Assembly: GCA_025355995.1 (NCBI GenBank)
Contig: JANXYQ010000086.1
Location: 1 to 40,953 of the forward strand
DNA from: Spirochaetaceae bacterium
GTDB taxonomy: Bacteria > Spirochaetota > Spirochaetia > Treponematales > Rectinemataceae
Length of the DNA: 40,953 nt
Reading direction: 5' to 3'
Made by a program: the position numbers and the translations under genes. Shown piece after piece: positions 5,372 through 40,953 of the stretch. The notes below the pieces were generated by a model. The model ran no database searches. It saw only the letters and a program-made list of their open reading frames with translations, and was not told the origin of the DNA. Numbering within the stretch: position 1 is the first letter of the stretch; each line of letters begins with the position of its first letter.

Positions 5372-6387
5372 CCTTGCAAGTCCTGTGGTTCGTGCTCTGG
5401 GGAACCCTGTGGGCGGTCTACTTCATGCTCGACGGCTTCGATTTCGGGGCGGGCATGCTGCGTAATTTCCTGGCCAGGGACGAGACCGAGCGCGGCCTCG
5501 CCCTCGCGGCCATAGGACCGGTCTGGAACGGCAACGAGGTCTGGCTCATCACCGCGGGCGGGGCGACCTTCGCCGCCTTCCCCGTGGTCTACGCCTCGAT
5601 GTTCAGCTTCCTGTACCTGCCCCTGCTCCTCATCCTCTTCTCCCTCATCGTGCGCGGAGTCTCGATCGAGTTCAGGAACAAGTCCGAGGGGCGGCGCTGG
5701 CGCTCCTTCTGGGACTGGGCCCTCTGCGTTTCCAGCTTCACCGCCCCCCTCGTGCTGGGCTTGGGCTTCGGCAACATCTTCGAGGGCCTCGCCATGACGA
5801 GCTCGGGCTACAGCGGGGGCTTCTGGCCCCTCTTCAATCCCTACGGCCTGCTCACGGCAGCGCTCTTCATCGTCCTTTTCCTCCAGCACGGCGCGCTCTG
5901 GCTCGAGTTCCGCACGGGAGGGGAGCTCGCCAGGCGCTCGCGCTCCCTCGCCTCCGTACTATGGTTCATCGTCATGGGAGTCGCCGTCCTTTTCCTCGTC
6001 GCGACCGCCTTCTCCACCAAGCTATACGACAACTACCTGGCGCGGCCGGCCTGGCTCCTCGTCCCGCTCCTCGCCGTACTCTCCCTGGCGGCGGTGAAGC
6101 TTTTCCACTCGATGGAGAGGGCCCTTCCCGCCTTCGCGGCCTCCTGCGGGACCGTGCTCCTCGTCGTGGCGACCGCCCTCGTGGGCCTCTTCCCCAACCT
6201 GATTCCCTCGAGCCTCGACCCGGCGGCTAGCCTGACCGCCTTCAACTCCTCCTCGGGTCCCTACACTCTCAGGCTGATGACTATAGTCGCCCTCATTTTC
6301 GTGCCCATCGTCATCGTCTATCAGTTCCTCGTCTACAGGTTCTTCCGGGCCAAGCTGACGAAAGCCGACGCGGGGGAGGGCTACTGA
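5368..6387 (+). CDS. cydB: Cytochrome bd ubiquinol oxidase subunit II
   Basis: 339 aa, second membrane subunit of the bd oxidase, with about eight or nine hydrophobic helices. The family signature GFDFGAGML lies near residue 25 and is followed by GPVWNGNEVWLI. The start ATG overlaps the cydA stop, giving translational coupling and equal output of the two subunits. No cydX-like small ORF with a ribosome site was seen in the 40 bp that follow; the next gene is convergent. Confidence 0.96.
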   Translation: MTLQVLWFVLWGTLWAVYFMLDGFDFGAGMLRNFLARDETERGLALAAIGPVWNGNEVWLITAGGATFAAFPVVYASMFSFLYLPLLLILFSLIVRGVSIEFRNKSEGRRWRSFWDWALCVSSFTAPLVLGLGFGNIFEGLAMTSSGYSGGFWPLFNPYGLLTAALFIVLFLQHGALWLEFRTGGELARRSRSLASVLWFIVMGVAVLFLVATAFSTKLYDNYLARPAWLLVPLLAVLSLAAVKLFHSMERALPAFAASCGTVLLVVATALVGLFPNLIPSSLDPAASLTAFNSSSGPYTLRLMTIVALIFVPIVIVYQFLVYRFFRAKLTKADAGEGY

Positions 6388-6397
6388 GAAATCGAGA

Positions 6398-6414
6398 GCC
6401 TCCGCGATGGAGGC
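6398..6414. terminator. Short hairpin between convergent cydB and sqr remnant
   Basis: GCCTCC-GCGAT-GGAGGC forms a 6-bp GC-rich stem 11 bp after the cydB stop. No T-run follows on either strand, so it is at best a weak or Rho-assisted terminator. Confidence 0.3.
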
Positions 6415-6429
6415 CCCCCGTCCCTCGGC

Positions 6430-7319
6430 TCACTTGACCCGGGCTATGCCCAGGCGGTCGAGAGTCCATTTCTCGTAGAAGCGCTCGGACACGCCCGTTT
6501 TCATCTTTCGGATGAAATATTTCTCGAAGCCTATCTTGGCCAGGTGGACCCAGCGACCCTGCTTCGCCCAGGTGACGTTGCGCGGCGGGATCTGGGGAAT
6601 GGCGACGAAAGCCATGCCGCCGTCCCCGAAGTCGGCGAGGCATATCGCGTTCCAGGTGGGCACCGACTCGAGCATATAGCCGGTCTTGGGCTCGCCCGTG
6701 GGGACCGGGGTGGGCTCCTTGGGCGCTATTGCTATGCATACCCCCGCCGAATAGATGTTCGGGCATCTCTTGCTCCGCTGGTGCTCGTCCACCAGGACGA
6801 AACCTCGGGGGTTGCAGAGTTCGGGCACCGAGGCGACGGCGTCCACGCCCTTGAAGGCCGGGATTATCATCGCAAAGCTCTGGGCTATCGTGCGCTCCCC
6901 GATCTGGGCTCCGTCGGGCCCGTGCTCGGTTATCGGGATCTCCCTCTCTCTCGCTTCCTTTATCCGTGCGTTAACCACCCACGAGATGCTGCGCTCTCGC
7001 AGCTTGCTCTCGAGCATTCCCTTGGAGTCGCCCACGCCGCCCAGGCCGAGATGGCCGACATAGGGCTCGCTCGAGACGAAGGTCATGGGCACCTTGTCCC
7101 TGATCCCGCGCTTGCGCAGGTCGGTGTCGATGATGAAGGCCATCTCGTAGGCGGGGCCAAAGCAGCTTGCGCCCTGGGCGGCTCCGACGACCATGGGGCC
7201 GGGGTGCTCGAGGAACTCCTTGTAGCGCTCGTTGGCTAGGAGGGTGTGGTCGAGGCTGCAAATGGACTGGGTGTGGGATTCCGGTCCCACGCCGCCCCTA
7301 GGATGACGATATTCGCCAT
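6430..7319 (-). pseudogene. sqr: Sulfide:quinone oxidoreductase, decayed by deletions
   Basis: The intact enzyme would oxidise sulfide and pass electrons to quinone via FAD. An ATG at 7319 with Shine-Dalgarno GGAGG opens MANIVILGAA, the start of the FAD-binding fold, but this frame stops after 26 codons. In another frame a GTG-started ORF (7290-6430, 286 codons) gives the rest of the protein: SHTQSIC, QGASCFGPAYE with a conserved cysteine, FVSSEPYVGHLGLGGVG, GYMLES and CLADFGDGG. About 120-130 residues seem to be missing at the frame break, and about 20 more between GYMLES and PTWNAICLAD. The estimates rest on remembered family architecture. A -10-like TATAGT (7359-7354) still lies upstream. 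An assembly error is the main alternative. Confidence 0.75.
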
Positions 7320-7423
7320 ATCAGCCTCCGTTCGAGGGGATGAGATAGGAAGAACTATAGACGATGGATTCTCGGTAGGCCAGGAATCGGCGGGCGGAAT
7401 GCGCGATCTCCCCTGGGACGGCC

Positions 7424-7609
7424 CTACTTCAGTCCCGGTTTCAGCTCGAAGGCGGGGCAGTGCTTCCCCGTGGCCCCGAAGACCTCGAACGAGGGCAGGT
7501 TACGGCTCTTGATGCCGAAGACGAGGCAGGAGCGCGGGAAGGCCGGTTCCCAGGTGATGCGGAAATGCAGGCACTTTAGGCAGTTCGGCGCTCCTGAGAT
7601 CACTACCAC
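7424..7609 (-). CDS. Small conserved four-cysteine protein
   Basis: 61 aa from GTG 7609, or 59 aa from GTG 7603; the second start has better spacing to the AGGAG at about 7612-7616. Pattern: CxxC near the N-terminus (CLKC), then FRITWEP, PRSC, VFGIKS, PSFEVFGATG and HCPAF. Four cysteines and conserved aromatics suggest a small metal-binding or zinc-ribbon-like fold. I recall similar short proteins in spirochaetes and delta-proteobacteria, sometimes mislabelled uracil-DNA glycosylase; no catalytic motif of that enzyme is present. Function unknown. Confidence 0.7.
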   Translation of the reverse strand: MVVISGAPNCLKCLHFRITWEPAFPRSCLVFGIKSRNLPSFEVFGATGKHCPAFELKPGLK

Positions 7610-7647
7610 CGCTCCTACGCGCTCGAATGTATGCCCTCGCTATATGC

Positions 7648-7682
7648 TTGTCTACGGCCCCGGAATTCCGTAAAGTGAGGGT
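7648..7682 (+). promoter_or_regulatory. Promoter of the rhomboid gene, start point at or near ATG
   Basis: TTGTCT (7648-7653), 17 bp, TAAAGT (7671-7676), then six bases GAGGGT and ATG at 7683. The expected transcription start falls on or next to the start codon, although GAGGG could also serve as a very close ribosome site if transcription began earlier. Confidence 0.5.
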
Positions 7683-8321
7683 ATGACTCGGAATTCACTC
7701 ATCAGGCGGCCGTTCCGCTATAGCTTCAAGAACCTCTCGATATGGCTCATCGCCGTCAACGTGCTGGTCTTCGCGCTGGAGTACCTCTTCCCGCAGGTCG
7801 GGGGATACCTGGCGATGACTCCGGCGCTCGTGCTCTCGGGAGCTGTATGGCAGCCGCTGACCTACATGTTCGCGCACGCCAACCTCACGCACCTCCTCGT
7901 GAACATGCTCGGCCTGCTCTTCTTCGGAACCGCTGTCGAGAAGGAGCTGGGCTCGCGGGAGTTCATCTTCTACTACCTCCTGATCGGCCTCCTCGCGGGC
8001 GTCTTCTCCTTCGCCGCCTACCTTTTCTCGGGCGGGGCCTACACTCCTCTCCTCGGGGCCTCCGGCGCCGTCTTCGCCGTCCTTCTCGCCTTCGCCACGC
8101 TGCAGCCCAACGCGCAGATCCTCATCTGGGGCCTGATTCCCGTCCGCGCCCCCGTCATGGTCATCGGCTACACGCTGATCGAGCTCTTCTCCCAGGTCAT
8201 CGGCACCTCGAGCAACGTCGCCCACCTGACCCACCTCGCGGGCTTCGCCTTCGGCTGGCTGTACTTCCTCGCGCGCTTCGGCGTCAATCCCTGGCGACGG
8301 TTCTTCCCCCGCGGCCGATGA
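7683..8321 (+). CDS. Rhomboid family intramembrane serine protease
   Basis: 212 aa, six or so membrane helices, the usual size of a minimal bacterial rhomboid. Cleaves transmembrane substrates within the inner membrane. Catalytic dyad: Ser127 in GASGAVF and His184 in HLTHLAG; the oxyanion-type residues His/Asn are seen in HLLVNMLGLLFFG. Its stop overlaps the start of the next gene (ATGA), so the downstream secreted protein is co-translated and could be a partner or substrate; that link is inference only. Confidence 0.93.
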   Translation: MTRNSLIRRPFRYSFKNLSIWLIAVNVLVFALEYLFPQVGGYLAMTPALVLSGAVWQPLTYMFAHANLTHLLVNMLGLLFFGTAVEKELGSREFIFYYLLIGLLAGVFSFAAYLFSGGAYTPLLGASGAVFAVLLAFATLQPNAQILIWGLIPVRAPVMVIGYTLIELFSQVIGTSSNVAHLTHLAGFAFGWLYFLARFGVNPWRRFFPRGR

Positions 8322-32068: not shown

Positions 32069-32097
32069 ATAGTAGCTCCCCCTAAGGCCGCGGGCAA
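32069..32097 (-). promoter_or_regulatory. Promoter of the acyl-CoA synthetase operon
   Basis: TTGCCC (32097-32092), 17 bp, TACTAT (32074-32069) on the minus strand; the -35 lies inside the 3' end of pgmB. Confidence 0.6.
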
Positions 32098-32765
32098 GGC
32101 GTCCCGCGAGGGCCGAGCCCGCCGGCCTCCCCCGGCAGGAGCTCGTAGAGGCCGCGCACGACGATGTCGGCCTCGGGGAGGTCCTCCCGCCTGCCGATGC
32201 CGACGGAGAACATGCCTGCCCTGCGCGCGGCCTCGATGCCGGCCGCGGCGTCCTCGAATACCGTGCAGGCGGCGCTCTCCACGCCCAGGGCGGCCGCTCC
32301 CGCGAGGAAGACCTCGGGGTCGGGCTTGGACTTCGCGACGGTCGTCCCGTCGACGACGGCGTCGAAGAGCCCGGCAATGCCCAGCCTCTCGAGTATCAGG
32401 GGGGCGTTCCTGCTCGCGGAGCCGAGGGCGACGCGCAGGCCCCTCGAGCGGAGGTACCGTATGTACTCCTCGGCGCCCGGGAGGATCTCGTCCTTGCCCA
32501 TCGCCGAGACGAGCTCGACGTACCAGTCGTTCTTGCGCGCCGCGTGGCTCTCCATGTCGGCCGGGGCCATCTCCAGCCCGCCCAGTTCGAGCAGGATGGC
32601 CATGCACCGCAGGCGGCCCACGCCCTTGAGCATCTCGTTGTCGCCCTCGTCGAATCGGATGCCGAGCTCGTCGGCGAGCCGTTTCCAGGCTCTGAAGTGG
32701 TACTTGGCGGTATCTACTATGACGCCGTCCAGGTCGAAGAGGGCGGCCCTCATGTCGCTCAGCAT
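32082..32765 (-). CDS. pgmB: Beta-phosphoglucomutase
   Basis: 227 aa HAD-superfamily mutase; converts beta-D-glucose-1-phosphate to glucose-6-phosphate via the 1,6-bisphosphate. Motif I FDLDGVIVDTAKYHF with nucleophile and acid/base Asp pair, cap-domain sequence, motif II GSASRN, motif III Lys in VAKSKPDPEVF, motif IV FEDAAAGIEAA. The DGVIxDTAxYHxxAW start is characteristic of PgmB. Ribosome site GGAAGGA before ATG 32765. Divergent from the LacI regulator; its substrate is exactly what the GH65 phosphorylase at 39336 produces. Confidence 0.93.
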   Translation of the reverse strand: MLSDMRAALFDLDGVIVDTAKYHFRAWKRLADELGIRFDEGDNEMLKGVGRLRCMAILLELGGLEMAPADMESHAARKNDWYVELVSAMGKDEILPGAEEYIRYLRSRGLRVALGSASRNAPLILERLGIAGLFDAVVDGTTVAKSKPDPEVFLAGAAALGVESAACTVFEDAAAGIEAARRAGMFSVGIGRREDLPEADIVVRGLYELLPGEAGGLGPRGTPCPRP

Positions 32766-32922: not shown

Positions 32923-34002
32923 ATGGCGACGATAAAGGACATCGCTCGGGAGGCCATGGTCAGCGTGACCACCGTCTCCAACGTCATCCACAACAAGAGC
33001 GCCCACGTCGCGCCGGAAACCGTCGAGCGGATCAACAAGATCATCGAGGCCCACAATTACACGCCGAATATGTCCGCCCGGGCCCTCGTCAACAAGTCCT
33101 CCCGCATCATCGGGGTCATCAACCACCTGATCCCGCAGCAAGCCGGCAGCTTCCTCCAGGATCCCTTCCACGGGGCCTTCATAGGAGGGATCGAGCGGGC
33201 GCTGCGCCTCCGCGACTATTACATGATGGTCAGGACGGTGGAGAGCGAGGCGGAGATCCTCTCCCTGTTCCGCAACTGGAACCTCGACGGCGTGATCCTC
33301 ACGGGGTTGTTCGAGGACAGCTTCTTCGGCAGGCTCATAAAGGCCGACAAGCCGATCGTCCTCCTCGACAGCTACATCGGGAGCGACAAGATATTCAACG
33401 TCGGGCTCGAGGACTACAGGGGTGGGCTCTTGGCCACCCGGTACCTGATCGACCGCGGCCACAGGGACATCGTGTTCGCCTCTCCGCGCATCGTCGCGCA
33501 CGGCGTCATCGACGAGCGGTACAAGGGCTACTGCGACGCCCTGAGGGCGGCCGGCCTCCCCCTCTCTCCGGAGAACGTCTACGAGCAGGAAATCACCATC
33601 TCCGAGGGGATCAAGCTCGGGCAGGCCCTGAGCGCCCGAAGGGACGTGAGCGCGATATTCGCCACCGCCGACATCCTCGCCGCCGGCATCATGTCCGGCC
33701 TCCAGGCCTCGGGCGTCCGCGTGCCCGAGGACATGTCGATAGTGGGCTTCGACGACCTCTTCATCAGCCGCATCACCAGCCCCCAGCTCACCACGATCCA
33801 CCAGGACGCCGACGCCAAGGGCGCGATCGCGGCCGACCTCATGGTCGATTACTTGGAGGGGAAGGCTCCCGCGAGCCGGACAATCATCATGCCGGTGAGC
33901 CTAGTCGAGAGGGCGTCGGTGGCGGCCGCCCCGACCCTCGGCCGCGCGATGCTGAATAGAATCCGCGGTGCCCAGGAAAAAAAGCGGGTTGACAGGTTTT
34001 AG
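32923..34002 (+). CDS. LacI family transcriptional regulator of the glycan locus
   Basis: 359 aa. N-terminal HTH (ATIKDIAREAMVSVTTVSNV, residues 2-21) with hinge ending near SARALVNKSSRIIGVI, then a periplasmic-binding-protein-like effector domain with FATADILAAGIMSGL and IVGFDDLFISRITSPQLTTI. Start ATG 32923 fits the family; a TTG at 32854 with GAGGGG upstream is a possible longer start (23 more residues). It lies directly before the genes carrying the two matched operators, which makes it their likely repressor. Effector unknown, probably the imported sugar. Confidence 0.93.
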   Translation: MATIKDIAREAMVSVTTVSNVIHNKSAHVAPETVERINKIIEAHNYTPNMSARALVNKSSRIIGVINHLIPQQAGSFLQDPFHGAFIGGIERALRLRDYYMMVRTVESEAEILSLFRNWNLDGVILTGLFEDSFFGRLIKADKPIVLLDSYIGSDKIFNVGLEDYRGGLLATRYLIDRGHRDIVFASPRIVAHGVIDERYKGYCDALRAAGLPLSPENVYEQEITISEGIKLGQALSARRDVSAIFATADILAAGIMSGLQASGVRVPEDMSIVGFDDLFISRITSPQLTTIHQDADAKGAIAADLMVDYLEGKAPASRTIIMPVSLVERASVAAAPTLGRAMLNRIRGAQEKKRVDRF

Positions 34003-34018
34003 GAAGCGGTTTTATAGT
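33989..34018 (+). promoter_or_regulatory. Promoter of the surface glycosidase gene
   Basis: TTGACA (33989-33994), 18 bp, TATAGT (34013-34018). The -35 overlaps the end of the lacI-type gene; expected start ~34025. Confidence 0.85.
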
Positions 34019-34026
34019 ATTCCAAA

Positions 34027-34040
34027 GTTTAACGTTCAAC
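34027..34040 (+). promoter_or_regulatory. LacI-type operator 1
   Basis: GTTTAACGTTCAAC, a 14-bp palindrome with one mismatch pair centred on CG. It begins eight bases after the -10, covering about +2 to +15, so a bound repressor would block transcription. Its reverse complement with one flanking base matches operator 2 in 14 of 15 positions. Confidence 0.75.
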
Positions 34041-34071
34041 CTATCTAGTCAACCAAGCGAGGTCGACACTC

Positions 34072-35907
34072 ATGACGCGAAGCGCTGCCATATACGTCTA
34101 CCTCCTTTCCGCGGCGATCCTGGTTTTCGCCGCCGGCTGTGCGACGGCTGGCGCCGGCCCGAAGGCGGGCGCCGGCTCGCGGGAGCAGGGGTCCGGGGCG
34201 AGCGGCGGGCTCAGGATCGAGGAGCCCGAGGCGCGCGGAGAGAAGAGGCCCCTTGTCCTGGTCCACTACATGCCCTGGTTCCAGGCGCCCCCGATAGCGG
34301 CCGGCTATGGCTTCCATTGGCACCAGGGCGGCGCGGTCTTCGATCCCTTCGCGACACTCCCGGACGGGCGGGCCAATATCGCATCCAACTATTATCCGCT
34401 TACCGGCCCCTACGACAGCCGGGACGGTAAGGCCCTCGAGTATCAGGCCGCCCTGATGAAGATGAGCGGCATCGACGGCGTCGTCTTCGATTGGTACGGC
34501 ATCGACGAGGCCCTTGACTACGGGCCGATCCACGAATCCACGCTCGCGATGATCGCGGTGCTCAAGGCGGCGGGACTCGCGTACGCGATATGCTACGAGG
34601 ACCAGAGCATAGGCAGGATGATCGAGGCGAAGCACCTGACGCGCGACGGCGCCCTCGCGGCCGCGAAGAAGACCTTCGATTGGCTGCAGGAGAATTGGTT
34701 CGCCGATGAAGCCTACGCGAAGCTGGACGGTCGCCCGGTGGTACTCTGCTTCGGGCCCCAGTACTTCAAGGACGCCGCCCAATGGAACGAGATCCTCTCC
34801 GTAGATGGACCGCGCCCCTGGCTGGTCTGCCTCGACGACCAGGGCTCGGCCGTCGCGGACGGCTCCTACGACTGGCCGCCGATGTGGGCCTCCGAGGGCG
34901 GAGCCCTCTCGAGGGATCGGCTTGTCTCCTACCTCAACGGCTTCTACGAGAGACAAAGCGCGAAGCCCCATCTCGTAGCGACGGCCTTCCCGGGTTTCTT
35001 CGACATATACCAGAAGGCTGGCAGCGGCCGCAGCTACGGCTTCCTCGACTACGCCGAGGGCGCGACCTTCGAGCTGACCTTAGGCGCGGCCATGCGCGCC
35101 CGTCCCGATATCATCCAGATTGCGACCTGGAACGATTACGGAGAGGGCACGGTCGTCGAGCCCACGATCGAGCACGGGTACCGGGAGCTCGAAGTCTTGC
35201 AGGACTTGCGTAGGCGGTTCGAGGCGGATTTTCCCTACGATTATTCCGACCTCCGCGCCCCCATCGAGCTCTTCAAGGCGAGACAGTCGGCAGCGGGCGG
35301 CGCCGATCGGCGAAAGAGCATCGGCGCCGTTTATGACGCGATATTCGCGAACTCTCCCGACGCGTATCGGGCCGCGCTGGCCGCCGCCAAGATCAAGACG
35401 GATTTCGGCGTCAGCCCCTACCTCCGCGAAAGAGCCGCCCCGAGCGCCGCGCTCGACCCGTCGCTCGCGGTCTTCGATCCCGCGGGGCGGGAGAATCTGG
35501 CTTTCAGGATGCCGATCGTCTATACCAGCAACATCTACGCATTCACCGGCGACAAGGCCGTCGACGGAGACCTCTCGAGCTACTGGGAGGGCGCGGCGAA
35601 TAGCTACCCCGACAGCCTCACCGTGGACCTGGTCTCCTCGCGGCGGCTCGGGACGGCGGTGCTGAAGCTCAATCCAAAGCGGATCTGGGGACCGAGGACG
35701 CAGCGCATCGAAGTACTCTCCAGCGAGGACGGGAAAGAATTCGTTCCGCTCGCGCCCGAGCGCGACTATCCCTTCGACCCGGCCGCCAACGGCAATGCGG
35801 TGGCCATACCCCTGGGCGTGGCCGCCCGCTACCTCCGCCTGGTCTTCAGCGGCAACAGCGGCGCGGGCGCGGGCCAGCTCGCCGAGCTCGAGATTTACGG
35901 CGAGTGA
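34072..35907 (+). CDS. Surface lipoprotein with GH99/GH71-like domain and C-terminal F5/8C-type module
   Basis: 611 aa. Lipoprotein signal with lipobox FAAGC (Cys23), then a Gly/Ala-rich linker to ~50. Residues ~58-385 resemble the GH99/GH71-like (WbsX-type) fold: LVHYMPWF, GIDGVVFDWYG, VVLCFGPQYF, and IATWNDYGEGT with Glu358. The C-terminal ~140 residues (NLAFRMPIVYTS..., AVDGDLSSYWEG, LRLVFSGNSG, LAELEIYG) look like a discoidin/CBM32 sugar-binding module. Likely cleaves or binds a glycan outside the inner membrane; known GH99 act on alpha-mannosides and GH71 on alpha-1,3-glucan, but the substrate here is unproven. Own LacI-controlled promoter. Confidence 0.85.
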   Translation: MTRSAAIYVYLLSAAILVFAAGCATAGAGPKAGAGSREQGSGASGGLRIEEPEARGEKRPLVLVHYMPWFQAPPIAAGYGFHWHQGGAVFDPFATLPDGRANIASNYYPLTGPYDSRDGKALEYQAALMKMSGIDGVVFDWYGIDEALDYGPIHESTLAMIAVLKAAGLAYAICYEDQSIGRMIEAKHLTRDGALAAAKKTFDWLQENWFADEAYAKLDGRPVVLCFGPQYFKDAAQWNEILSVDGPRPWLVCLDDQGSAVADGSYDWPPMWASEGGALSRDRLVSYLNGFYERQSAKPHLVATAFPGFFDIYQKAGSGRSYGFLDYAEGATFELTLGAAMRARPDIIQIATWNDYGEGTVVEPTIEHGYRELEVLQDLRRRFEADFPYDYSDLRAPIELFKARQSAAGGADRRKSIGAVYDAIFANSPDAYRAALAAAKIKTDFGVSPYLRERAAPSAALDPSLAVFDPAGRENLAFRMPIVYTSNIYAFTGDKAVDGDLSSYWEGAANSYPDSLTVDLVSSRRLGTAVLKLNPKRIWGPRTQRIEVLSSEDGKEFVPLAPERDYPFDPAANGNAVAIPLGVAARYLRLVFSGNSGAGAGQLAELEIYGE

Positions 35908-35945
35908 AGCGGCCTCGGCCTTCGGAAAATAGCTACGAAAATTTC

Positions 35946-35974
35946 TTGACAGGGATTTGGGGCGGGATTACACT
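35946..35974 (+). promoter_or_regulatory. Promoter of the sugar ABC/GH65 operon
   Basis: TTGACA (35946-35951), 17 bp, TACACT (35969-35974). Expected start ~35981. Confidence 0.85.
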
Positions 35975-35981
35975 CCCGTAG

Positions 35982-35995
35982 GTTAAACGTTAAAC
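35982..35995 (+). promoter_or_regulatory. LacI-type operator 2
   Basis: GTTAAACGTTAAAC, same palindrome as operator 1 and seven bases after the -10. A further half-site-like TAAACGT follows as part of the direct repeat TTAAACGTTAAACG. Confidence 0.75.
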
Positions 35996-36066: not shown

Positions 36067-37428
36067 ATGAGAAAGACAGCAATCGCATTGTGCCTCGCGC
36101 TTACGCTGGTCGGCATGGCGTCGGCGCAGAACGTAACGGTGAAGCTCGGGATCTGGCCGGAGGACACCCTCGCCGGCGACATCGCCATGCACCAGGGCTT
36201 CGTGAAGGAATTCAACGCGACGTACCCGAACGTGACGATCGTGCCGGCCTATTACAAGTACGCGACCGACACCTTCGTGTCCCTGGCCGAGACCGGCCAG
36301 CTCCCCACGATCTTCGAGTCCTGGTTCACCGAGCCTCAGAAGCTCATCGCCGGCAAATTCGTCAAGGACATCACCGCCGAGGTGAAGGCCCTCGGCTGGG
36401 ACGCCAAGATGAACAAGTCGGTCCTCGACCTCATGTCCAAGGACGGGAAGATCTACGGCGTGCCCCGCGACGCCTACGCCCTCGGCCTCATGGTCAACGT
36501 CGAGCTCTTCAAGAAGGCCGGGCTCGTCGACAAGAGCGGCCTCCCCCTCTATCCGAAGACCTGGGACGAGCTCGCCAAGACTGCCAAGACCATCAAGGAC
36601 AAGACCGGCGCGGCCGGGCTCTGCCTCCTCGCCAAGGACAACGCCGGCGGCTGGCACTTCACCAACATCGCCTGGGCCTTCGGCGCCAAGTTCGAGGCGC
36701 AGAAGGCCGGCAAGTGGGTCGCCGCCTTAAATACCCCCGAGGCCGTCGCCGCGGTGCAGTACATCAAGGACCTCAAGTGGAAATACGACGTGCTGACCGC
36801 CGATCCGACCAACGAGGACTGGGGCACGGGCTTCCGCGAGCTCGGAACCGGCGCGGCCGCCATGTACATCGGGGCCCAGGACGCCGTCAACCAGCCCACC
36901 CAGGTCAACGGGCTCGACGTCAAGAGCCTCGCGCTCGTGCCCGTCCCCGCGGGCCCCAAGGGCCAGTTCTCCCTCATGGGCGGCACTCCCTACATGTTCC
37001 CCGCCAACGCGACCTCCGCCCAGGTCACCGCCGCCCTCCACTACCTCGAGGTGATGGGCCGGGCTCCCCTCGTCAACGCGAAGACGGTCGCCGGCCTCAA
37101 GGCCGATGCCCAGAACCGCAAGAACCAGGGCGTCCCCGTCGTGCCGACCTTCCCCGCATGGACGGACCCCGCCTTCCTCAAGGCCCAGGCCGCCGCCCTC
37201 GACGAGTCCCGCAACGTCGATATGCGCCTGTACAACGATTACTACGCGGCGGTCGCCAAGAAGGGCAACCTCCGCACCGAGGAGCCCTTCGCCGCGCAGG
37301 ACCTCTACGCCGAGCTCACAAAGGTTCTCCAGGCCGTCGTGACCGACAAGGGCGCCAACGTGCAGGCCCTCCTCGACACCGCCCAGAAAAACTTCCAGCC
37401 CCTCCTCGACAAGGCCGCCAATAAGTAA
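36067..37428 (+). CDS. Sugar ABC transporter substrate-binding protein
   Basis: 453 aa, CUT1-type extracellular sugar-binding protein (MalE/UgpB class). Signal peptide MRKTAIALCLALTLVGMASA, cut before Gln21, with no lipobox cysteine, so the mature protein is predicted free in the periplasm. Landmarks: KLGIWPED, FNATYPNVTIVPAYY, KIYGVPRDAYALGLMVNVELFKKAGL (family anchor, residues ~130-155), TWDELAKTAKTIK and MGGTPYMFPANATS. Strong ribosome site AGGAGGAAGGAG before ATG 36067. First gene of the operon; specificity unknown, presumably a di- or oligosaccharide for the GH65 enzyme. Confidence 0.93.
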   Translation: MRKTAIALCLALTLVGMASAQNVTVKLGIWPEDTLAGDIAMHQGFVKEFNATYPNVTIVPAYYKYATDTFVSLAETGQLPTIFESWFTEPQKLIAGKFVKDITAEVKALGWDAKMNKSVLDLMSKDGKIYGVPRDAYALGLMVNVELFKKAGLVDKSGLPLYPKTWDELAKTAKTIKDKTGAAGLCLLAKDNAGGWHFTNIAWAFGAKFEAQKAGKWVAALNTPEAVAAVQYIKDLKWKYDVLTADPTNEDWGTGFRELGTGAAAMYIGAQDAVNQPTQVNGLDVKSLALVPVPAGPKGQFSLMGGTPYMFPANATSAQVTAALHYLEVMGRAPLVNAKTVAGLKADAQNRKNQGVPVVPTFPAWTDPAFLKAQAAALDESRNVDMRLYNDYYAAVAKKGNLRTEEPFAAQDLYAELTKVLQAVVTDKGANVQALLDTAQKNFQPLLDKAANK

Positions 37429-37517: not shown

Positions 37518-38432
37518 ATGAGCGCAGCCAGTCCGGCTCGGATGACGAAGAGGATCCCGTTCGACGTTAGGCTCAGGAAGAACCTGCCCGGCTGGCTCAT
37601 CATGCTGCCGAGCCTGGTCCTGTTCTCCTTCTTCGTGTGGGAGCCCCTCCTCGAGAGCGTCCGCCTCTCCCTCTATACCGCCGAAGGCATGAGACTCGTC
37701 CAGTTCGTCGGCTTCCAGAACTACCTCGACGTCTTCCAGCACCCGGACTTCTGGCCGGCCATCCGCAATACCTTCTACTACACGCTCTGGTCCCTCGCGA
37801 TCGGCTTCCTCGTGCCGATCGTACTCGCCATCCTCATCAACGAGATCCGCAGGGGGAGGTCCTTCTTCAAGGTCGGCATCTACCTCCCCAACATCGTCCC
37901 CGGGATGGCCATGGTCCTCATGTGGGGCTTCATCTTCAAGCCGAGCAACGCGGGCATACTGAATGTCATGCTGAGCGCCCTCGGCATCCACGCCCAGCCC
38001 TGGCTCACGGATCCGCACCTGACCATCCCCCTCATCGTCGCCACCCTGACCTGGCAGGGCGCCGGGGCGACCGCGCTGCTCTACATCGCCGGCCTCCAGG
38101 GCATCGATCCCGAGCTCTACGACGCGGCCATAATGGACGGGGCGGGAATCTGGAAGCGCGTCCGCTACATAACGGTGCCGAATATCTACAACCTCGCCAG
38201 GACCCTGCTGATCCTGCAGATAATCTCCGTGTTCCAAATACTCTACCAGCCCTTGGTAATGACCAACGGAGGGCCCAACAACGCGTCGATCTCGATAATG
38301 CAGCTCGTCTTCCGGTACGCGTTCCAGAATTACGATTACCCCAAGGCGGGAGCCGTCTCGGTGATCATCTCGCTCATCCTGATCGCCCTGACCGCGGCGT
38401 ATAATAAGCTGAACAAAGAGAAGGACATGTAG
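37518..38432 (+). CDS. Sugar ABC transporter permease (MalF-like)
   Basis: 304 aa, six membrane helices. Inner-membrane channel subunit of a CUT1 sugar importer. The ATPase-contact EAA loop is ELYDAAIMDGAGIWKRV, followed by YITVPNI. The N-terminal WLIMLPSLVLFSFFVWEPL helix is typical of MalF/UgpA proteins. Start ATG 37518 follows GGGGTAGAG. The next permease starts nine bases after the stop. Confidence 0.94.
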   Translation: MSAASPARMTKRIPFDVRLRKNLPGWLIMLPSLVLFSFFVWEPLLESVRLSLYTAEGMRLVQFVGFQNYLDVFQHPDFWPAIRNTFYYTLWSLAIGFLVPIVLAILINEIRRGRSFFKVGIYLPNIVPGMAMVLMWGFIFKPSNAGILNVMLSALGIHAQPWLTDPHLTIPLIVATLTWQGAGATALLYIAGLQGIDPELYDAAIMDGAGIWKRVRYITVPNIYNLARTLLILQIISVFQILYQPLVMTNGGPNNASISIMQLVFRYAFQNYDYPKAGAVSVIISLILIALTAAYNKLNKEKDM

Positions 38433-38440
38433 GCGGGGCT

Positions 38441-39310
38441 ATGGCGAACAAGAACGCTGGATACGGCATCATCCGGGACCTCGACCTCAAAAGCCCGGGC
38501 GTCCGCTCGGGGTACAGGCTCGTTTTCGCGATCTGCGTAGTCGCCCTCCTCGTCGGGATCGCGCCGATGGTATGGGTCGTCGTCTCGGGCTTCAAGACCA
38601 TCAAGGAATTCGTGATATCGGTCAACGTCATCCCCGAGTCTTTCGATATCTCCAAGTATACGGGGACCTGGATCAGCCTCAAATTCGCGAAGTACTACCG
38701 GAACTCCCTCGTATCCGTGATAGGCAGCGTGGGCTGCGCCGTGATCTTCAACGGGCTCCTGGGCTACGCCCTCTCGAAGGTCAAGCCCTCCGGCTGGAGG
38801 ATCGTGTACGCCTTGGTGATGGCCGGCCTCCTCATACCCGCCACGACCAGCATCGTCCCCCTCTTCATCAACATCACGAGGGTGCACTTGAACGGCAGCT
38901 TCGTTCCGCTCTGGCTCTCGATCGGCGCCAACGCCTTCTACGTGGTGCTCTTCAAGACCTTCTTCGACTCGCTCCCGAACTCCCTCGTCGAGGCGGCGAA
39001 GATCGACGGCTGCACCGACTTCAGGGTGTTCCGCAGCATAGCCCTGCCCCTGAGCCGCTCGATAATGATGGTCGTGGCCATCTACGCGATCAACGCCGCC
39101 TGGTCGGACTTCCTCCTCCCCTACCTGGTGCTGAACCAGTCGGGCCTGGAGACGGTGATGGTGAGGCTTTTCCAGTTCAGGAACGGGAAGACCTCCGACA
39201 TCGACATCCTCAGGGCCATCGTCTTCGTCATCATCCCGCCGACGGTCCTGTTCCTGTTCTTCCAAAAGCAGATAACCCAGGTGACTGCGCAGTCGGGCAT
39301 CAAGGGATAG
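38441..39310 (+). CDS. Sugar ABC transporter permease (MalG-like)
   Basis: 289 aa, six membrane helices, second channel subunit of the importer. EAA loop SLVEAAKIDGCTDFRVF followed by RSIALPLSRS. The first helix (LVFAICVVALLVGIAPMVWVV) and the PLWLSIGANAFYVVLFKTFF region are typical of MalG/UgpE proteins. No ATPase gene follows; as in many Gram-positive and spirochaetal sugar importers, a shared MsmX/UgpC-type ATPase encoded elsewhere is probably used. Confidence 0.94.
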   Translation: MANKNAGYGIIRDLDLKSPGVRSGYRLVFAICVVALLVGIAPMVWVVVSGFKTIKEFVISVNVIPESFDISKYTGTWISLKFAKYYRNSLVSVIGSVGCAVIFNGLLGYALSKVKPSGWRIVYALVMAGLLIPATTSIVPLFINITRVHLNGSFVPLWLSIGANAFYVVLFKTFFDSLPNSLVEAAKIDGCTDFRVFRSIALPLSRSIMMVVAIYAINAAWSDFLLPYLVLNQSGLETVMVRLFQFRNGKTSDIDILRAIVFVIIPPTVLFLFFQKQITQVTAQSGIKG

Positions 39311-39335: not shown

Positions 39336-40953
39336 ATGGCTAAGGTCGCTGATCGTTATTTGAGGCTCGATCCCTGGATGATCGTCGAGGAGGGCTGGGA
39401 CGGGACCAAGAGCCTCGTCTCCGAGTCGGTCTTCTCGCTCGGGAACGAGTACATGGGAGTGCGCGGGTACTTCGAGGAGGGATTCTCCGGCGAGAGCCTC
39501 CTCGGCAGCTATTTCAACGGCGTATACGAAGAGGAGCCCTGCGAGGGAACCGCCTACAAGGGCATCGTCCAGAAGACGCACTTCATGGCGAACGCGGCGG
39601 ACTGGCTCTACGCGAGGATTTCCTTCGAGGGCGAGGCCCTCGACCTCGGCTCCTCCGCAATCGGGAATTATCGGCGCTGCCTCGACCTGCGGAAGGGGAC
39701 GCTGACGCGCGAATTCGACTGGCGAGTCGCAGGCGGAAAGGCCATCCGCGTCTCCCTCCTCCGCTTCCTCGACATGAAGGACTACGAGAGGGGCTACCAG
39801 CGCCTCGCCTTCACCCCTCTCGGCTTCTCCGGGACGCTGAGTCTCAGGATCGCAAACGATTTCGGCACGATCCATGCCGGCAGGAAGAGATGCCTGTGGA
39901 AGGACCTGAGGCGCGGCTTCGGCGCGGCCGGGAGCGCCGCCGCCATGGCCTCGACCCTCACGACGGGGCAGAGACTCTTCACGGGCTTCGTCTGGGCGTC
40001 GAACCGCGGCGCCGCGGCGGAGCGCTTGGAGTCCGGAATGCTCGCCGGCTACGGCATCGAAGTCGGCCTGATCTCGGGCGAGGAGAGCTTCGTCGAGAAA
40101 ATAATCTATAACCTCGTCGAGAAGGACTCGTCGGTCGATCCGGATAGCGTCTGGAACAGGGGCATGGAGGGCCTGTCCCTCCTGGGCGCTAGGCCCTTCC
40201 CCGTGGCCCGGAGGGCGCAAGAGGAATACTGGCTCTCGTTCTGGGAGCGCTTCGACGTGCGGATCGACGGGGACGAGCTGAACCAGCAGGGCATCAGGTA
40301 CTGTGTCTTCCAGATGCAGCAGACCTACCACGGCGCAGACCCCTCGGACAATATAGGCGCCAAGGGCCTGACCGGCGAGGCCTATAACGGGCACGCCTTC
40401 TGGGATACCGAGACCTACTGCCTGCCCTTCTTCCTCTTCACGAACCCCGGGGCGGCCAGGAACCTACTTGAGTACCGCTACAGGACCCTGCCCCAGGCCA
40501 TGGACCGCGCGAGGATGCTCGACTGCCGCGGCGCCTGCTATCCCGTAGCCACCCTGAACGGGGAGGAGGCCTGCAATCTCTGGCAGCACGCGAGCCTGCA
40601 GTTCCAGCCCAGCACCGCGGTAGCCTACGGCATCGCCCACTATTCGAGGGTCTCGGGGGACCGCGATTTCCTCTACGGGCACGGGGCGGAGATGCTCCTG
40701 CAGATCAGCCGCTTCCTCGAGTCGCGGGGAGCCTGGGACCAGTCGGGGTCGGGCTTCGGATTCTACGCCGTCATGGGGCCGGACGAGTTCCACATGATGG
40801 TCAACAACAACTGCTATACCAACTTCATGGCGAAGAAGACCTTCGAGTTCTCCCTCGCCACCCTGGCGGCGATGAGGGAGGAGAGACCCGAAGCCTATAG
40901 CTCCCTCGCCTCGCGGACCGGCCTGGCCGACGCCGAGCTCGAGGGCCTCGAGC
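39336..40953 (+). CDS. GH65 disaccharide phosphorylase (maltose/kojibiose/nigerose type), 3' end cut
   Basis: First 539 codons; the gene runs off the right edge (full family members are ~750-800 aa). Cytoplasmic inverting phosphorylase: alpha-disaccharide + phosphate gives beta-glucose-1-phosphate + the other sugar. N-terminal beta-sandwich (SLGNEYMGVRGYFEEG), then the (alpha/alpha)6 barrel with GLTGEAYNGHAFWDTETY, LFQ-like QHASLQFQPSTAVAY and GPDEFH with general acid Glu484. Ribosome site GAGGT before ATG 39336. Last visible gene of the LacI-controlled operon; linkage specificity is not readable. Confidence 0.95.
   Translation, partial: MAKVADRYLRLDPWMIVEEGWDGTKSLVSESVFSLGNEYMGVRGYFEEGFSGESLLGSYFNGVYEEEPCEGTAYKGIVQKTHFMANAADWLYARISFEGEALDLGSSAIGNYRRCLDLRKGTLTREFDWRVAGGKAIRVSLLRFLDMKDYERGYQRLAFTPLGFSGTLSLRIANDFGTIHAGRKRCLWKDLRRGFGAAGSAAAMASTLTTGQRLFTGFVWASNRGAAAERLESGMLAGYGIEVGLISGEESFVEKIIYNLVEKDSSVDPDSVWNRGMEGLSLLGARPFPVARRAQEEYWLSFWERFDVRIDGDELNQQGIRYCVFQMQQTYHGADPSDNIGAKGLTGEAYNGHAFWDTETYCLPFFLFTNPGAARNLLEYRYRTLPQAMDRARMLDCRGACYPVATLNGEEACNLWQHASLQFQPSTAVAYGIAHYSRVSGDRDFLYGHGAEMLLQISRFLESRGAWDQSGSGFGFYAVMGPDEFHMMVNNNCYTNFMAKKTFEFSLATLAAMREERPEAYSSLASRTGLADAELEGLE

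Follow-up and report, generated by a model that had tools for sequence, protein, structure and literature searches.

Two palindromic 14-mers in a 40,953-nt contig of a Spirochaetaceae bacterium (JANXYQ010000086.1, assembly GCA_025355995.1; the whole contig is termed the window, the genome comprises 4.5 Mb) are very probably operators of the LacI-family repressor encoded next to them, which would control the utilization of alpha-1,3-glucan. The sites are assigned to the adjacent LacI because they accompany its orthologs from one phylum to another, are found before the same genes in trans, coincide with the transcription start in almost all species, and covary with the hinge of the protein. This comparative evidence gives strong support to control of the sites by the LacI encoded next to them. 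We have high confidence in the regulatory reading and good confidence in alpha-1,3-glucan as the substrate. The initial annotation of this DNA had proposed repression by the adjacent LacI at the transcription start, a proposal for which the ortholog tracking, the targets in trans, the site geometry, and the covariation of the operator base NT-2 all argue, but had named no substrate. Two palindromes spotted by eye can thus be extended to a predicted regulon for which operator, target genes, and substrate are named.

Operator sites and promoters in the window

Both 14-mers fit the pattern GTTNAACGTTNAAC. Operator 1 (GTTTAACGTTCAAC, positions 34027–34040) was identified by pattern scan and is found at the same place before orthologous genes elsewhere; operator 2 (GTTAAACGTTAAAC, 35982–35995), detected in the same way, is conserved elsewhere before genes encoding solute-binding proteins (SBPs) of ATP-binding cassette (ABC) transporters. 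No other match with up to two mismatches occurs in the window. Shuffled windows contained 0.13 such matches on average, and two matches were reached in 1 of 100 shuffles. The initial annotation had suggested a genome scan with the 14-mer; in the whole genome, operators 1 and 2 are the only exact copies, no place has one mismatch, and the 10 extra places with two mismatches represent no excess over the 9 obtained with a reversed control pattern.

Sequence inspection revealed a promoter upstream of each operator, both on the plus strand. Promoter 1 (33989–34018, TTGACA-N18-TATAGT; −35 box at 33989–33994, −10 box at 34013–34018) matches 11 of the 12 consensus bases and promoter 2 (35946–35974, TTGACA-N17-TACACT; −35 box at 35946–35951, −10 box at 35969–35974) matches 10. 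Because these promoters end 8 and 7 nt before operators 1 and 2, respectively, both operators begin at approximately the transcription start. The coordinates of the palindromes, their shared pattern, and their position 7–8 bases past the −10 boxes of TTGACA promoters agree with the initial annotation. The −35 box of promoter 1 is located inside the last codons of lacI, the stop codon of which is at 34000–34002.

The lacI gene (32923–34002, plus strand) encodes a protein of 359 amino acids with the N-terminal helix-turn-helix (HTH) domain (PF00356, 59.3 bits, cut-off 27) and the periplasmic-binding-protein-like sensor domain (PF13377, 115.3 bits, cut-off 26.5) of the LacI/GalR family. The hinge leucine (ARALV; L55, V56) and a CG-centred palindrome (centre AACGTT) are likewise present. 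An HTH with hinge leucine and a CG-centred palindrome are shared with local LacI-family sugar regulons (PMC4052901; recognition code, PMC2978694), as are an operator overlapping the promoter and targets comprising a sugar ABC transporter and glycoside enzymes (PMC4052901). In contrast to these regulons, the half-site in the window is GTTNAAC, and its LacI carries Asn at AA-20, where Arg is common. While this kind of system is well known, the regulon itself is new; PMC4052901 mentions neither nigerose nor spirochaetes, and a literature search yielded no match to the operator string and, among the papers listed, none on this regulon.

Operator 1 is followed on the plus strand by the gene of a secreted GH99/GH71-like hydrolase (34072–35907; PF16317, PF14307, PF00754), a putative lipoprotein with an F5/8 type C domain and a predicted alpha-1,3-glucanase. 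Downstream of operator 2, genes in the same orientation encode the SBP (36067–37428; PF01547), a MalF/UgpA-like sugar permease 1 (37518–38432; PF00528, NCBIfam), a MalG/UgpE-like sugar permease 2 (38441–39310; PF00528, NCBIfam), and a GH65 phosphorylase-like protein (39336–40953; PF03636, PF03632), whose gene is cut by the contig end. The N-terminal and central catalytic domains of GH65 alpha-glucoside phosphorylases are encoded in the window; the C-terminal part is missing at the contig end. Divergent from lacI, the beta-phosphoglucomutase gene pgmB is located at 32082–32765 on the minus strand (TIGR01990, 228.8 bits, cut-off 189.4).

Distribution of the operator with LacI orthologs

In the comparison set, G numbers denote genomes and L numbers loci. 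Among 58 related genomes, only G049 encodes an ortholog of LacI (63% identity). Its lacI gene adjoins flagellar genes at a contig start, and the genome contains exactly two exact sites, one before a GH99-like gene and one before an SBP gene. No exact site was found in six other genomes of the same order, in which the best LacI relative is 34–39% identical, and the 29 other genomes of the same family contain a single motif copy, in G010, near an unrelated gene. Nine spirochaete genomes encode a LacI with at least 60% identity: the genome of the window, G049, and the genomes containing L045–L050 and L053. Exact sites are present in seven of them, at 15 places. Of these, 13 precede a GH99-like or SBP gene, whether or not lacI is a neighbor; of the other two, one falls within an apparent rplU gene (G063) and one is located on the 3′ side of the GH99-like gene of L045. 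As expected for a regulon, the motif is kept before the same genes where the ortholog is present and is missing where it is absent, apart from two ortholog genomes without exact sites.

A scan of the genome collection resulted in 80 loci. Sites with at most one mismatch were detected in 24 of the 34 loci with a LacI of at least 47% identity and in none of the 46 loci at or below 44% (Fisher p 8e-13, which is only indicative because the loci are related). The orthologs with at least 47% identity carry the motif into Clostridia. When perfect CG-centred palindromes were counted without reference to the motif, GTTTAAC·GTTAAAC was the commonest in the former group, but not in the latter, whose members mostly kept the TTVSN helix, yet have no such operator. 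A TTGACA-type promoter ends 1–11 nt before the operator at 23 of 25 sites; the gap is mostly 7–9 nt in spirochaetes, apart from one gap of 1 nt and two of 11 nt, and 2–3 nt in most Clostridia. Many clostridial sites are paired, 33–134 bp apart, and could support DNA looping.

According to the initial annotation, no copy precedes pgmB or the regulator. This holds for the window, where the pgmB–lacI interval is free of copies within two mismatches, but not for lacI in Clostridia. In several of these, imperfect copies with an altered centre (GTTTAACCTTAAAC, GTTTAACATTAAAC, GTTTAAGGTTAAAC) are located about 35–55 nt before the lacI start (L057:9965, L059:9964, L060:4589, L061:9962, L062:582, L063:4913, L071:9967, L076:6727, L089:9946), and the missing autoregulation is therefore lineage-specific. 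The central CG is changed to CC, CA, or GG in all of these copies, which suggests weak autoregulation, perhaps by a deliberately weak autoregulatory operator.

Covariation of the LacI hinge and the operator

The hinge residue AA-55 (GalR numbering) is linked to the operator base NT-2 (PMC2978694). At this position, the LacI of the window has V (its own residue 56), and NT-2 of the operator is A. Orthologs with V have A at NT-2 in 42 of 46 half-sites and G in none, whereas orthologs with the hinge residue A have G at NT-2 in 19 of 32 half-sites, seen in all seven loci (e.g., GTTTAGCGCTAAAC). A maximum-likelihood tree requires at least two origins of the hinge residue A. The covariation ties the regulator to the operator.

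Evidence for alpha-1,3-glucan as the substrate

In Clostridia, the operator stands before SBP-permease-permease-GH65-GH65 operons. The gene order in Lachnoclostridium phytofermentans KNHs2131 (L059) is GH28, beta-phosphoglucomutase, LacI, GH65, GH65, permease, permease, SBP, from which we infer that this locus corresponds to Cphy_3310 to Cphy_3317. Cphy_3310 is described as a GH28 protein (PMC4230839), Cphy_3313 as a nigerose phosphorylase, and Cphy_3314 as an alpha-1,3-oligoglucan phosphorylase (PMC8950772). The GH65 protein of the window shares 45% identity with the second GH65 of L059, which occupies the place of Cphy_3314. The Cphy_3313/3314 cluster shares the LacI clade, the transporter, GH65, and PgmB with the window, and an operator of the window type with one mismatch precedes its SBP gene. 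It differs in that the spirochaete version has the GH99/GH71-like hydrolase instead of GH87/GH28, and only one GH65 can be seen in the window up to the contig end. A second cluster of L. phytofermentans comprises genes for the nigerose phosphorylase Cphy1874, a GH31 protein, an ABC transporter, and LacI (PMC9061262).

The operator is also associated with GH87 alpha-1,3-glucanases. In L. phytofermentans KNHs2131, twin operators are located about 460 bp before a GH87 gene that is unlinked to lacI, and operators are found close upstream of the GH87 gene of G081. In L071, the cluster linked to lacI includes a gene for a protein that combines two GH87 catalytic units with an F5/8 domain; this domain and the F5/8 domain of the window hydrolase are 44% identical. 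Alpha-1,3-glucan occurs in fungal cell walls and in bacterial slime or exopolysaccharide and is a candidate carbon source for the spirochaetes carrying GH99/GH71-like proteins.

The GH99/GH71-like hydrolase

The hydrolase scored above the cut-off of the Pfam GH99 family (42.7 bits, cut-off 33) and below that of GH71 (29.1 bits, cut-off 34). Its AlphaFold model, of modest confidence (mean predicted local distance difference test score, pLDDT, 64.7), is nearest to GH99 structures (Z about 19), followed by two enzymes of GH71, AnGH71C and Agn1p (Z about 16). The GH71 alpha-1,3-glucanases and the GH99 endo-alpha-1,2-mannosidases/mannanases share a related barrel fold with the hydrolase and an acidic D/E-x-x-E dyad at the same position, although the identity to both is only about 11–15% over the barrel. 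In the segment TWNDYGEGT of the hydrolase, D355-x-x-E358 is invariant in seven orthologs, and D355 aligns with the first Glu of the GH99 dyad. Asp at the first position is reported to be almost exclusive to GH71 and Glu to GH99 (PMC12394665); Asp was present in all seven orthologs and Glu in none. The protein was not filed as GH71 because of its score below the Pfam cut-off, and not as GH99 because Asp, not Glu, is first in the dyad. It has Asp first, as in GH71, and carries an F5/8 domain. Most likely, it acts as an alpha-1,3-glucanase. A likely function can thereby be given to uncharacterised GH99/GH71-like proteins of spirochaetes. On balance, we favor the broader view that the lipoprotein represents an uncharacterised group of bacterial alpha-1,3-glucanases between GH71 and GH99 and that LacI controls an alpha-1,3-glucan regulon common to environmental spirochaetes, Treponema metagenome-assembled genomes (MAGs), and Clostridia.

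The GH99 score and the GH99-like model would also fit a system in which operators and repressor are real, while the sugar is a different alpha-glucoside (kojibiose, or Glc-alpha-1,3-Man from mannan-like glycans) and the hydrolase a GH99 endo-mannosidase or mannanase. In the Protein Data Bank, the GH65 part best matches an entry named kojibiose phosphorylase (6w0p), which points in the same direction. However, the clostridial operators before GH87 alpha-1,3-glucanases and the GH65 pair in the position of Cphy_3313/3314 speak against another sugar, which we regard as unlikely.

Weighing of the regulatory assignment

The palindromes might be the target of some other regulator, a LacI paralog or otherwise, with the neighboring lacI as a bystander, since the genome contains about 30 LacI-family matches to the query and the TTVSN helix is also found in LacI proteins without the motif. 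However, the motif accompanies this particular LacI clade in different phyla and does not occur with other LacI proteins, and NT-2 covaries with the hinge residue of this LacI, so that another regulator appears highly improbable. Although short motifs recur by chance, as the single exact copies in unrelated places in G010 and G063 illustrate, a coincidence without regulatory function is already contradicted by the genome-wide uniqueness, the conserved targets and geometry, and the covariation, and its probability is negligible.

Several observations nevertheless weigh against LacI control of an alpha-1,3-glucan regulon. The genomes of L047 and L050 encode a close LacI ortholog, yet have no exact site, and exact copies occur within the apparent rplU coding region (G063) and before an unrelated gene (G010). 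The second origin of the hinge residue A56 consists of one locus, L067, with one site and one G half; as L067 is a single member, this replicate is thin. The GH65 pair of L059 was equated with Cphy_3313/3314 by gene order, not by sequence, and the GH65 gene of the window is incomplete at the contig end. For GH28 and the small wall proteins of the clostridial regulon, a part in alpha-1,3-glucan breakdown is not obvious.

Proposed mechanism

The sites, the promoters, the conserved targets, the co-occurrence of motif and ortholog, and the protein-DNA covariation are shown by the sequences, whereas binding, repression, inducer, and enzyme specificity are inferred. A LacI dimer on GTTNAACGTTNAAC would cover the transcription start of the two promoters and block initiation, promoter 1 presumably driving the secreted hydrolase and promoter 2 the SBP-permease-permease-GH65 operon. 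LacI would be released by a sugar taken up into the cell, with nigerose or an alpha-1,3-oligoglucan as the most likely candidate. The hydrolase is predicted to cut alpha-1,3-glucan outside the cell, and the oligosaccharides would be imported by the SBP and the permeases together with the single MalK-type ATPase of the genome. GH65 would then phosphorolyse them to beta-glucose 1-phosphate, which PgmB would convert to glucose 6-phosphate. The ATPase gene had been named as a possible further target in the initial annotation, but the one OB_MalK-type ATPase gene found has no nearby operator: its surroundings (stretches L142 and L156) contain no site within one mismatch.

Further motif copies

The ten places with two mismatches in the genome were rejected as additional targets, because the reversed control was not exceeded. 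Two of them are copies of GTTCCACGTGGAAC, 49 bp apart (G000:C25:39282–39344; L003, L004) beside a gyrA-like gene, and were not counted as targets, since they resemble ParB parS sites. CTTGAACGTTCAAA at C25:70857, near genes for ABC-type sugar-binding proteins, has two mismatches and is not claimed as a target.

The genome of L070 (G071; LacI 51% identical) contains four exact copies (L125, L139, L145, L154), none of them before the usual targets; one stands before an ABC permease-like gene. In L073, a Treponema MAG, near-copies at 2138 and 2154, 16 bp apart, adjoin a 48%-identical LacI and precede an ABC transporter cluster with GH31 (5638–8067). Genes for small secreted proteins of 215–233 amino acids are preceded by operators in L146 (258–905), L182 (4643–5308), and L184 (3288–3989); the L146 protein has an LPXTG-anchor match, and these are possibly surface glucan-binding proteins. 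In Kineothrix alysoides, twin exact operators (L181:4362 and 4471) precede the gene of a methyl-accepting chemotaxis protein, and chemotaxis may belong to this LacI regulon.
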